Shown: in pieces, positions 31,814-35,728 of the stretch
Numbering within the stretch: the first letter of the stretch is position 1
Layout: each line of letters opens with the position of its first letter
From: Bacteroidota bacterium
GTDB lineage: Bacteria > Bacteroidota > Bacteroidia > Chitinophagales > Saprospiraceae
Assembly: GCA_029561355.1 (NCBI GenBank)
Contig: JAKQJD010000124.1
Span: forward strand, 1-43,968
Length of the DNA stretch: 43,968 bases
Direction of reading: 5' to 3'
Program-made: the position numbers and the translations under genes
The notes under the pieces: generated by a model
The model's input: only the letters and a program-made list of their open reading frames with translations
What the model was told of the DNA's origin: nothing
Databases searched by the model: none

Positions 31814-32884
31814 ATGCAAAACAGGTCGAATACCACAGCGCAGTTTATTTCCAGTATCGTCTCCGTCACCGGCGTCGGAAGCGTTTGTTACCTTTTTTCC
31901 GATTTCATCGGTTACCGTTCCGTTGCGCTGATCCTGCTGCTGACGGTGTCGCTTCTTGCCATGCGCCTCCGTTTGTACCCGGTGCTGCTGGCAGCTTTGC
32001 TCAGTGCGCTCATCTGGGATTTCTTTTTCATTCCGCCCCGGTATACGTTTCACATCAACAGTTATGAAGACGTGTTGATGCTGGCCATGTATTTTATCGT
32101 AGCCCTGCTGAACGGAGTGCTCACCGCACGCATCCGTTTTTTTGAAAAACTGGCCCGGGAAAAAGAAGCGAAACATCAAACCCTGGAATTGTACGACACC
32201 CTTTTCGACGCCCTGTCGCACGAACTGCGCACGCCGATTTCAACCATCCTCGGCGCGTCCGACCACTTGCTTTCGGAAGATAAAAACCTGCCGGATAAAG
32301 ACCGCAAATCACTTGTTCTCGAAATTATGCACGCTTCGGAGCGCTTGAACCTGCTGACGGAAAATTTGCTCAACATGTCGCGGCTCGAATCCGGGTTTAT
32401 ACGCCCCAAAGCCGACTGGTGCGATCTTTCGGAACTGATTTACACGGTGGTGAACCGGCTGGAAGACAGTTTGAGCACACACCGGATACAGGTTTCCCTG
32501 CCCGAAAACCTGCCGCTGGTGAAACTGGATTTCGGCCTGACGGAACAGGTTTTGCACAACTTACTGATCAATGCCGTGAAACACACGCCGCAGAACTCGC
32601 TGATCCGCATTTCCGCCCATGCACAGCAGCAGCAATGCACGATCGAGGTGTCGGACTCGGGAAACGGGTTTGCGGATACCGACCTGCCGCATATTTTCGA
32701 AAAATTTTACCGCAGCCGCAATGCCGGCCCCGGCGGTGTGGGACTCGGATTGTCGATTGCGAAAGGGTTCGTGGAAGCGCAGGGCGGCACCATTACCGTC
32801 GAAAGCCTGCCCGGGACCGGCGCTTATTTCCGGATCAGCATTCCTGCCGAACTCAATTACCTGAAACCGGAAAACGATGATTGA
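31814..32884 (+). CDS. KdpD-like sensor histidine kinase (DUF4118 + HisKA + HATPase)
   Basis: A 356-residue kinase. ATG 31814 (MQNRSNTTAQFISS) is used because a GTG at 31784 lies in a repeat. Residues about 10-110 are four membrane helices with the DUF4118 hallmark WDFFFIPPRYTF. The H box DALSHELRTPISTILGASD has phospho-accepting His136. The ATPase end has N (LLINAVKHTP), DSGNGFADTDLPHIFEKFYR and GGVGLGLSIAKGFVE. The KdpD N-terminal domain and USP domain of the full-length protein are absent. Its stop overlaps the regulator start by 8 bases. It likely senses potassium or turgor, here next to kup and not kdpFABC. Confidence 0.88.
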   Translation: MQNRSNTTAQFISSIVSVTGVGSVCYLFSDFIGYRSVALILLLTVSLLAMRLRLYPVLLAALLSALIWDFFFIPPRYTFHINSYEDVLMLAMYFIVALLNGVLTARIRFFEKLAREKEAKHQTLELYDTLFDALSHELRTPISTILGASDHLLSEDKNLPDKDRKSLVLEIMHASERLNLLTENLLNMSRLESGFIRPKADWCDLSELIYTVVNRLEDSLSTHRIQVSLPENLPLVKLDFGLTEQVLHNLLINAVKHTPQNSLIRISAHAQQQQCTIEVSDSGNGFADTDLPHIFEKFYRSRNAGPGGVGLGLSIAKGFVEAQGGTITVESLPGTGAYFRISIPAELNYLKPENDD

Positions 32885-33566
32885 AGCGACCATCCTGATC
32901 ATTGACGACGAGCCGCCGATTCGCCGCCTGCTGGATATTACCCTGTCGGCACAGCACTACCGCGTCATGGAAACCGGTACCGCACGCGACGGCCAGATTG
33001 CGGCAGCCATGCACCCGCCCGACCTTATTTTGCTCGATCTGGGCCTGCCGGATGAAGACGGGCAGGCGCTTTTGCTCAAACTCCGGGAGTGGTATTCCAA
33101 ACCGATCATTGTGTTGTCGGCAAGAAATATGGAAGAAGAGATCGTACAGGCGCTCGACCACGGCGCGAACGATTACCTGACCAAGCCTTTCAGAACGGGC
33201 GAACTGCTGGCGCGCATCCGGTCGGCCCTGCGTGTTTCGCGACAGGAAGAAAACAATCCTGTACGGGAATTCGGCAACCTGCGCATCGACCTCGTAGCCC
33301 GGCAGCTGCGCCGGAACAACGAATTGGTACACCTGACCGCCACAGAATACGCCTTGCTGCTGCTTTTGGTGCAAAATGAAGGCCGGGTACTGACCCACCA
33401 GTTTATTTTGCGGGAAATCTGGGGCGCGCCGTACAGCACTCAATCACAGTATTTACGGGTGTATATCGGCCAATTGCGCAAGAAAATAGAGAACAATCCG
33501 AACCAGCCTGTTCATATTATAACCGCTTCCGGAGTGGGTTACCGGTTTTCAGGAAGTTCTTTATAA
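32877..33566 (+). CDS. KdpE-like response regulator
   Basis: A 229-residue OmpR-type regulator. Receiver motifs are ILIIDDEPPIRRLL, phospho-accepting Asp54 in LILLDLGLP and TKPF. The C-terminal winged helix contains LTATEYALLLLLVQNEGRVL and ends with ASGVGYRFS. Close to KdpE. It is translated with the upstream kinase by overlap. The likely target is the unit starting with the 40-residue peptide and kup. Confidence 0.9.
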   Translation: MIEATILIIDDEPPIRRLLDITLSAQHYRVMETGTARDGQIAAAMHPPDLILLDLGLPDEDGQALLLKLREWYSKPIIVLSARNMEEEIVQALDHGANDYLTKPFRTGELLARIRSALRVSRQEENNPVREFGNLRIDLVARQLRRNNELVHLTATEYALLLLLVQNEGRVLTHQFILREIWGAPYSTQSQYLRVYIGQLRKKIENNPNQPVHIITASGVGYRFSGSSL

Positions 33567-33617
33567 AATCTTTATATCCTTTTCCTGACTTTTACGCCCG
33601 GTTTATACCTCCTGCCT

Positions 33618-33625
33618 CACTTTTG
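33618..33625 (+). promoter_or_regulatory. -7 promoter box of the small peptide-kup unit
   Basis: CACTTTTG, the same box as at 1482 and 22309. Transcription would start near 33630, about 29 bases before the peptide ATG. It separates kup from the two-component genes. Confidence 0.4.
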
Positions 33626-33658
33626 CCCGGTTCTTTTTCTCAAAAAAATGATGGCAGG

Positions 33659-33781
33659 ATGGAGCACGACGATAAAAAAATCACCCCGGCCGAATGGATA
33701 CAGATCATTTTCTGGTGGATGTTTTCCATCGCGATGATAGTCGTGGTTTTTTTTAAAATTAAATACTTGTTGTTCAAGTAA
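33659..33781 (+). CDS. 40-residue single-helix membrane peptide preceding kup
   Basis: The frame MEHDDKKITPAEWIQIIFWW continues with MFSIAMIVVVFFKIKYLLFK. It has a charged N-terminus, one hydrophobic segment (about 14-32) and a basic end (KIK, K40). The stop is three bases before the kup ATG, and a promoter box lies 33 bases upstream. It resembles, in size and design, accessory peptides such as KdpF, but I find no sequence proof. A partner or stabiliser of Kup is an inference. Confidence 0.6.
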   Translation: MEHDDKKITPAEWIQIIFWWMFSIAMIVVVFFKIKYLLFK

Positions 33782-33784
33782 CAC

Positions 33785-35728
33785 ATGAAACCCAGTCATT
33801 CTACTACCTCAAAAGTCACCGCCGGTTCACTTCTCATCGCACTCGGCATAATTTACGGAGATATCGGTACCAGCCCCTTGTATGTGATGAAAGCCATCAT
33901 AGATTCCAAGGAAATATCTGAAATGCTGGTATTCGGCGGAGTCTCCTGCGTCTTCTGGACCCTCGTTTTTCAAACTACCTTTAAATACATCACCCTGACC
34001 CTGACGGCCGACAACCACGGCGAAGGCGGTATATTTTCCCTGTATGCCCTGGTTCGGCGTTACGGAAAAGGGCTCGTTTTTTCGGCTATGATCGGGGCCG
34101 CCACACTCCTGGCCGACGGCATGATCACACCGCCGATTTCCGTTGCTTCCGCAGTAGAAGGACTGGAAAAAGTAGCGCCGCACCTGCCCACGGTGCCAAT
34201 CGTCATCGTGATTATTTCATTTATCTTTTTCTTCCAGCGTTTCGGCACACAAACGGTCGGGCGGGCCTTCGGGCCGGTCATGGCCGTCTGGTTTGCCATG
34301 TTGCTGGTGTTAGGCGCAGTACAGATTTACCATTATCCCGATATCGTGCGGGCCTTAAATCCTTATTACGCCATCCAGTTGCTGACGCGCTACCCGCATG
34401 GTTTCTGGTTGCTGGGCGCCGTTTTTCTGTGTACAACCGGTGCGGAGGCCTTGTATTCCGACCTGGGACACTGCGGCAAATGGAATATTCGCTATACCTG
34501 GATTTTTGTAAAGACCAGCCTGGTAGTCAACTACCTGGGTCAGGCAGGCTGGCTGCTGCACCATGGCGATAATTACCTGTCGGGCCGGAATCCGTTTTAT
34601 GAAATCATGCCGCAATGGTTTCTCATTCCGGGTATCATCATTGCCACTGCGGCGGCGATCATCGCTTCGCAGGCATTGATCAGCGGTTCGTATACACTGA
34701 TCAGTGAAGCCATGTCGCTCAATTTCTGGCCACGCGTCGGGGTGCGCCAGCCTACCGAGTTCAAGGGACAAATCTATATTCCCAGCGTAAACATTATGCT
34801 CTGGGCGGGCTGTATCGCCGTAATGCTGTATTTCCAGAACTCGGAACACATGGAAGCGGCCTACGGGCTGGCCATTACTATGACCATGATGACTACCACG
34901 GTCCTGCTGAGTTATTACCTGTACCGTGTACGGAAATGGGCACTCGGGCTGGTGGCTTTTCTGGGATTGCTGTTTATTTTCATCGAGTTATCCTTCTTTA
35001 TCGCCAACCTGAAAAAATTTCCGGAGGGCGGCTTTATTACCCTCATCATTGGCGGCGGACTTTTCACGATCATGTACTCCTGGTATTTTGCCCGGAAAAT
35101 CAACAACAAGTTCGTGCGTTTCGTTGATCTGTACACTTACCTGCCGGTACTGAAAGAACTGAGCGAGGACGATGCCATTCCAAAATTCAGCACCCACCTG
35201 ATCTATCTCACCAAGGCCGATCACCGCAGTCATATCGAGGAAAAAGTGATCAAATCCATTTTTTCCAAAAAACCCAAACGCGCCGACGTTTACTGGTTCC
35301 TGCACCTGAACCGCACGGACAGTCCATATACCCTGAATTACGAAGTGGCCGAACTGCTCGACGACAAAGTGATCCGGATCGATATCAACCTGGGTTTCCG
35401 CGTGCAACCCCGCACGGAGTTGTTTTTCAAAAAAATCGTCCAGGATCTGGTCAAAAACAAGGAACTAAGTCTGCACATCCGCCCCGACGGAAGCACGAAA
35501 TACAACCCGGAGCCGGACTTTAAATTCGTGGTGATCGAAAAATTCCTGTCGCTGGAAAACGAGTTCAGCCTGCGCGAAGGACTGCTGCTCAACAGTTATT
35601 TCTTCCTGAAAAAACTCAGCCAGTCCGACGAAAAAGCCTTCGGGCTTGACAAGTCGGATATTGTCGTGGAAGACGTACCCATGCTGGTGCAGCCGGTGCA
35701 AAAAATGGATTTCAAGCGGATACCCTGA
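33785..35728 (+). CDS. kup: Kup-family low-affinity potassium transporter
   Basis: A 647-residue inner-membrane potassium importer. The family start ALGIIYGDIGTSPLYVM is at about residues 19-35. Further signature segments are DNHGEGGIFSLYALVR and TGAEALYSDLGHCG. About twelve helices are followed by a cytoplasmic domain from about residue 450. Kup is usually a proton symporter. The small membrane peptide is directly upstream and the KdpDE-like system precedes it, a link that suggests potassium-responsive control. The stop is followed at once by a 118-base palindrome. Confidence 0.96.
   Translation: MKPSHSTTSKVTAGSLLIALGIIYGDIGTSPLYVMKAIIDSKEISEMLVFGGVSCVFWTLVFQTTFKYITLTLTADNHGEGGIFSLYALVRRYGKGLVFSAMIGAATLLADGMITPPISVASAVEGLEKVAPHLPTVPIVIVIISFIFFFQRFGTQTVGRAFGPVMAVWFAMLLVLGAVQIYHYPDIVRALNPYYAIQLLTRYPHGFWLLGAVFLCTTGAEALYSDLGHCGKWNIRYTWIFVKTSLVVNYLGQAGWLLHHGDNYLSGRNPFYEIMPQWFLIPGIIIATAAAIIASQALISGSYTLISEAMSLNFWPRVGVRQPTEFKGQIYIPSVNIMLWAGCIAVMLYFQNSEHMEAAYGLAITMTMMTTTVLLSYYLYRVRKWALGLVAFLGLLFIFIELSFFIANLKKFPEGGFITLIIGGGLFTIMYSWYFARKINNKFVRFVDLYTYLPVLKELSEDDAIPKFSTHLIYLTKADHRSHIEEKVIKSIFSKKPKRADVYWFLHLNRTDSPYTLNYEVAELLDDKVIRIDINLGFRVQPRTELFFKKIVQDLVKNKELSLHIRPDGSTKYNPEPDFKFVVIEKFLSLENEFSLREGLLLNSYFFLKKLSQSDEKAFGLDKSDIVVEDVPMLVQPVQKMDFKRIP

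Follow-up and report, generated by a model that had tools for sequence, protein, structure and literature searches.

An unnamed family of single-helix membrane peptides associated with two unrelated potassium uptake systems in Bacteroidota

Directly upstream of the K+ transporter gene kup, a Bacteroidota genome carries a conserved 40-codon frame for a predicted single-helix membrane peptide, relatives of which lie beside the genes of two unrelated K+ uptake systems, namely kup itself and kdpA of the Kdp pump. The family is unnamed, and its linkage to both systems suggests a small helper subunit that has not yet been described. Kup is commonly regarded as a transporter made of one protein, and its fold is unrelated to those of KdpA and KdpB; hence, a partner shared by these transporters is not an obvious expectation. 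Based on comparative sequence evidence, we propose that the peptide is probably an accessory subunit or stabiliser of inducible K+ uptake systems, optional and KdpF-like in role. More tentatively, with slightly less than even confidence, we suggest that this one family might serve as a plug-in subunit for both the Kup symporter and the Kdp P-type pump, moved between operons, and might thereby represent what is, to our knowledge, the first known protein partner of bacterial Kup.

A conserved 40-codon gene upstream of kup

The window, that is, the whole stretch of 43,968 nucleotides analysed here, is an entire contig of a 6.8-Mb draft genome. The genes of interest follow the order kdpD-like, kdpE-like, peptide, kup (Table 1), and kup in the window thus belongs to a KdpDE-type regulatory cluster. 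We use the names ‘kdpD-like’ and ‘kdpE-like’ because KdpD and KdpE are the best NCBIfam matches of these products though the scores fall under the cut-offs; the kinase matches only the C-terminal part of the KdpD model (663-883 of 895), far under its cut-off. The top NCBIfam model for the kup product is kup, at 405.6 bits, below the cut-off of 539.6.

Table 1. Coordinates of the peptide gene, its neighbours and candidate regulatory sites in the window
Feature	Position	Strand	Details
Short kdpD-like sensor kinase, 366 aa	31784..32884	+	DUF4118, HisKA, HATPase_c
kdpE-like response regulator	32877..33566	+	Top NCBIfam model KdpE, 240.5 bits, below the cut-off of 325
KdpE-like tandem site TTTATA-AAATC-TTTATA	33560..33576	+	Overlaps the end of the kdpE-like gene
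Second, weaker KdpE-like pair TTTACG-N5-TTTATA	33591..33607	+	Two mismatches
Bacteroidota -7-like box CACTTTTG	33618..33625	+	One mismatch to TAnnTTTG; putative role
40-aa single-helix membrane peptide gene	33659..33781, stop included	+	ATG 33659, TAA 33781
kup, K+ transporter, 647 aa	33785..35728	+	Pfam K_trans E 5.2e-155

The 40-aa peptide, MEHDDKKITPAEWIQIIFWWMFSIAMIVVVFFKIKYLLFK, has a single hydrophobic stretch with a top 19-residue Kyte-Doolittle mean of 2.41, and AlphaFold2 models it as one helix spanning residues 10-39 (mean pLDDT 85.4). The window holds 945 stop-free frames of at least 25 codons, so an open frame by itself is no proof of a gene; the above-chance signal for this one is conservation. 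In a kup search across 42 genomes of the genus, with the upstream regions read for 30 fetched loci, the same 40-codon frame was found upstream of kup in five genomes (G000, G016, G008, G018 and G025), the four relatives that carry the window-type gene being MAGs. The five clade frames share start, stop and length, with zero indels, and the clade peptides are 65-85% identical to that of the window. Variable columns fall at codon positions 1, 2 and 3 in the proportion 15/8/31 across the five species (chi-square p 4.4e-4), and dN/dS is 0.05-0.14 in four of the ten pairs, dS being saturated in the remaining six. None of the antisense frames stays open across the five members. An alternative TTG start 12 codons upstream would extend the product to 52 aa, but the conservation of the frame starts at the ATG. 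These patterns indicate that the 40-codon frame is a real gene under purifying selection. The initial annotation, which had pointed to an overlooked 40-residue membrane peptide ending three bases ahead of the kup ATG and had looked to conservation and synonymous change in related genomes for support, is thereby borne out on each of these points.

Its further expectation, that the frame should persist in relatives with the same kup context, held only in part: beyond the five genomes that keep it, 10 of the 15 readable kdpE-kup spacers in the genus have no peptide frame, and the window-type peptide is absent from 37 of the 42 genomes. The empty spacers mark the peptide as optional and, together with its absence from those genomes, indicate that Kup works without it. 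When profile A5 (defined below) was run over the same 42 genomes, it recovered the five clade members, a kdp-linked copy in G029 and a match in G023 (E 0.037), the last of which we discount as it lies inside a 139-codon frame with no K+ genes nearby. The G029 copy (L178:1498-1608) has a GTG start and sits between kdpF and kdpA; it is three residues away from the copy of G782, a genome of family f20 (L146), and so transfer or assembly contamination is possible.

A candidate KdpE-controlled promoter

The promoter box that had been proposed upstream of the peptide met a mixed fate. A sigma-70 scan returned no promoter at this site, whereas a box resembling the Bacteroidota -7 consensus TAnnTTTG (PMC9723704, excerpt) is present with one mismatch. 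The CACTTTTG box is kept in four of the five clade members, the fifth having CACCTTTG.

Further upstream, the tandem site at the end of the kdpE-like gene has the TTTATA/TTTACA half-sites, the 5-bp spacing and the upstream position of KdpE-controlled genes, as described for the 6-bp repeats TTTATA and TTTACA bound by Escherichia coli KdpE (PMC3264566, excerpt). It is the single match to TTTATA-N5-TTTAYA in the window, and none of 100 shuffles contains one. Such a site precedes peptide-kup in 5/5 clade members, the second pair in Table 1 matching the exact pattern at that position in G018 and G025 only. With zero or one mismatch, it also occurs in each of the four spacers between divergent kdpD and kup that were examined in family f20, though two of these four 7-kb loci have a further single-mismatch site elsewhere. 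One peptide-less genus locus, in G023 (L011:557-659), likewise has a KdpE-like TTTATACTTTTTTTATA between kdpE and kup; hence, the promoter is independent of the peptide. The other nine peptide-less genus loci have no KdpE-like site in the spacer, which measures 24-48 bases in eight of them.

Relatives of the peptide beyond the genus

A profile of the five clade peptides, searched against 396 genomes of the order, yielded two clade members followed by G655 (E 6.3e-5), G657 (2.2e-4), G663 (0.0024, interrupted by an internal stop) and G611 (0.0040). Three of these four top out-of-clade matches, in G655, G657 and G611, fall in frames of 39, 38 and 36 aa that adjoin kdpA, each close to a KdpF frame, and in the two cases tested (G657 and G611) the neighbour has a Pfam match to KdpF. 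Seven of the ten out-of-clade loci from this search have no kup, kdpA, kdpD, kdpE or NtrC-like gene within 3 kb.

In the reverse direction, profile A3, built from seven kdp-linked peptides, has the kup peptide as its sole match at E<=10 in the window's own 6.8-Mb genome (E 0.0235); three of the seven came from the clade profile and four (L090, L102, L111 and L095) were chosen by eye among the short hydrophobic ORFs that adjoin kdpA. A profile of 23 peptides from which the window clade was left out matches the window peptide with an estimated genome-scale E of 5.4e-4; the kup-linked f20 peptides alone, used as a profile, match it with E 0.32 only. Profile-profile comparison of A1 with A3 gives a probability of 96.2 (E 2.2e-9), against 5.7 and 1.1 for A1 with two other small kdp peptides. 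The latter comparison led us to reject an origin from the second small kdp peptide described below.

In family f20, possibly Chitinophagaceae, the combined profile A4 finds 33 places in 31 of 244 genomes at E<=0.01. The control for this search was the reversed A5 profile, which matched none of 66 genomes, seven of which are matched by forward A4. In 66 f20 genomes the clade-only profile found only G657 and one match inside a frame of 572 codons with no K+ genes, and it missed G524, G564, G673, G688 and G691, all matched by the combined profile; it is thus weak across families, single-helix peptides carrying little information.

Alignment A5 comprises 28 members of 33-43 aa, namely the five of the window clade and 23 of the 33 f20 places, with the core IxxAWLxALAxxYxVxxKIKxLF; the similarity spans the helix and a basic C-terminal stretch, and cross-family E-values are modest. 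Seven loci (L141, L146, L147, L150, L153, L154 and L155) were left out for an unclear start or frame, weakness or lack of context, as were three f20 places for which no locus was initially at hand. Among the 28 members, the only sub-threshold library matches are to DUF2975 (one member, E 0.005) and YonT (one, E 0.08). A PDB profile search gave two chance-like matches (best E 0.23). With A3 partly hand-picked and the window clade included in A4 and A5, the profile searches that followed cannot count as independent of the first one. The tests least affected by this are the clade-only order search, the kdp-only A3 search of the window's own genome, with the caveat of the hand-picked members, and the gene contexts, which the profiles do not use.

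In wider searches, A5 matched eight of 296 genomes of the phylum, with a K+ gene beside the match only in the window and in G916, a genome from a different family of the same class that carries a member of the peptide family; six of the seven out-of-window places lack such a gene. Within the window's own family it matched 10 of 199 genomes, with an adjoining K+ gene only in the window and none at 11/11 other places. In G115, from this search, an 81-codon frame ending ...MYIAWLLALAVIYLVFVRSKILGASMR (L164, E 8.1e-4) looks family-like and has no kup or kdpA within 3 kb; it is either a chance match or a copy that left its transporter. A single-peptide tblastn of 398 own-family genomes gave only weak matches beyond the clade (best E 0.0044), many of them inside symporter-like frames of ~480 codons, which look like chance.

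Gene context and frequency

The 33 f20 places divide into 23 beside kdpA, taken as a kdpA match starting within ~0.9 kb, seven beside kup and three beside neither. Six of the 33 are members of the query alignment, and 24 of the other 27 show a K+ context. The three places that lacked loci, fetched later, are all beside kdpA. The three with neither gene nearby (G658, G755 and G568) are probably chance matches and are still counted in all totals. The recurrence of relatives beside kdpA or kup in another family shows that the link to K+ transporters is not a one-off.

At kup, the peptide gene lies upstream in the window clade and G620, and downstream in G769, G805, G622, G564, G550 and G704, where it starts 15-44 bases past the end of the kup match. 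In an unrooted Kup tree that includes peptide-less kups and leaves out G622, the peptide-linked kups form three separate groups. Loci chosen independently of the peptide put its frequency in perspective: the family model matches six of 46 order loci picked by kdpA, with the duplicate L124 left out (G580, G524, G591, G410, G526 and G549), and five of 30 genus kup loci. The peptide is thus a minority companion of both genes.

We also note that L123 (G549) and L124 (G526) have several kdpA matches in one contig stretch that also contains the new peptide. The kdp operons further encode a second unnamed peptide of ~26-28 aa, ending in FFEKI or similar and located before kdpF, for example, at L106:3183-3263 (contig C422 of the window's own genome). 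In a pattern scan of the 46 order kdpA loci, this FFEKI-type peptide was found in 41 and the KdpF tail in 44, L099 being missed in both counts as its upstream region was mislocated; 14 members of the FFEKI type have no NCBIfam match and one chance-level Pfam match.

Possible roles of the peptide

The coding signal, conservation, family membership, kdpA/kup linkage and conserved KdpE-like site are all features of the sequences themselves. Building on them, we propose that the product is an inner-membrane protein of 40 residues with one helix. Its gene is probably transcribed together with kup, from a promoter that KdpE would activate in the interval separating kdpE from the peptide gene; the three-base gap makes translational coupling likely. 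The family would be built optionally into K+ operons, either next to kdpF and kdpA or immediately flanking kup on one side or the other. Within the membrane, the helix may then pack against the transporter and stabilise it or tune its activity under K+ scarcity, much like KdpF in the KdpABC pump. Among members of the window clade, the flank preceding the helix is acidic (-1 to -3) and the one following it basic (+3), so that by the positive-inside rule the peptide would be oriented N-out, C-in; other family members have N-terminal flanks of 0 to +5 and C-terminal flanks of +1 to +3.

A different partner is conceivable, namely KdpD or a comparable kinase, whose membrane domain the peptide would contact so as to exert feedback on K+ signalling. 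In the window the peptide gene comes after kdpDE, four f20 kup-linked copies adjoin a divergent kdpD (with kdpE also in the stretch viewed in G769, G805 and G564, and kdpD alone in G550), and KdpF has been reported to bind KdpD in a two-hybrid assay with mycobacterial genes (PMC3618439, excerpt). However, 18 of the 23 kdp-linked places, along with G704 and G620, have an NtrC-like regulator and no kdpD or kdpE in the ~1.5-3 kb viewed; the neighbour that stays the same is the transporter gene; and the same excerpt has KdpF overexpression without an important effect on kdp regulation. We hence regard a role at the sensor as unlikely. We see the same low likelihood for control of transporter turnover, whereby the peptide would shield the transporter from FtsH or hand it over to this protease, as MgtU, MgtS and MgtR do for Mg2+ pumps. 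Known small proteins act on transporters in this way (PMC10710835, excerpt), and the link to two unrelated transporters fits an adaptor, since one peptide could then serve both, but by sequence this is inseparable from a subunit.

Considerably less probable is that the window peptide is real and resembles the kdp-linked peptides merely through convergence of short hydrophobic helices. Forty residues with modest E-values leave some room for this, as do the matches below 1e-3 without nearby K+ genes in G658 (f20), G1024 (phylum) and G115 (own family); yet the reciprocal profile matches combined with gene context, the silence of the reversed profile and the failure to match two further small kdp-operon peptides speak against it. 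The least credible alternative is a cis-acting leader, with kup expression governed by translation of the frame rather than by its product: the stop just ahead of the kup ATG would suit it, but selection acts at the amino-acid level, homologues occur on the downstream side of kup or ahead of kdpA with further small genes intervening, a freedom of position that favours an acting protein, and the region 33000-34200 has no Rfam match at E<=0.1.

If the peptide is indeed an accessory subunit, a small interchangeable membrane component would be common to K+ uptake systems, joining either Kup or the Kdp pump, and the peptide would be a testable candidate for post-synthesis control of Kup at low K+. 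The family also illustrates how such small proteins escape family libraries, with none of its 28 aligned members matching a Pfam or NCBIfam model at cut-off.

Comparison with KdpF and other known systems

The closest parallel is KdpF of the KdpFABC complex (PF09604, TIGR02115), a tiny single-helix membrane peptide that is likewise encoded in a K+ uptake operon at the transporter gene, in the window with a candidate KdpE-type site as well; the title of a reference in PMC3618439 (excerpt) credits it with stabilising the Kdp complex in vitro. The suggestion made at the outset of a KdpF-like position and design at a K+ transporter is thus upheld by the relatives beside kdpA and kup, though the peptide is no KdpF: it is longer, also accompanies Kup and has no visible sequence relation. 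Identity with KdpF was rejected on a profile-comparison probability of 3-6% and on the presence of a KdpF frame adjoining the peptide in kdp operons, and the KdpF models match none of the 28 A5 members at the limits used, the window peptide having no match at all in Pfam or NCBIfam. The window's own genome has its kdpA locus on a separate contig with its own KdpF, which ends in KPEKF (the KdpF tail of the order being of the xPEKF type), whereas the window copy precedes kup and ends in KIKYLLFK.

For Kup, we found no small-protein partner among the titles and abstract openings surveyed in the open PMC literature, most subscription papers lying outside this coverage. By their description, MgtS, MgtU, MgtR and AcrZ offer a parallel as transporter-targeting small proteins (PMC10710835, excerpt), though with other substrates and in other organisms. 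Likewise, KimA, a member of the KUP family, provides a precedent for post-translational control of a KUP transporter, exerted in that case by a nucleotide, c-di-AMP (PMC10284832, excerpt), and in our proposal by a membrane peptide.
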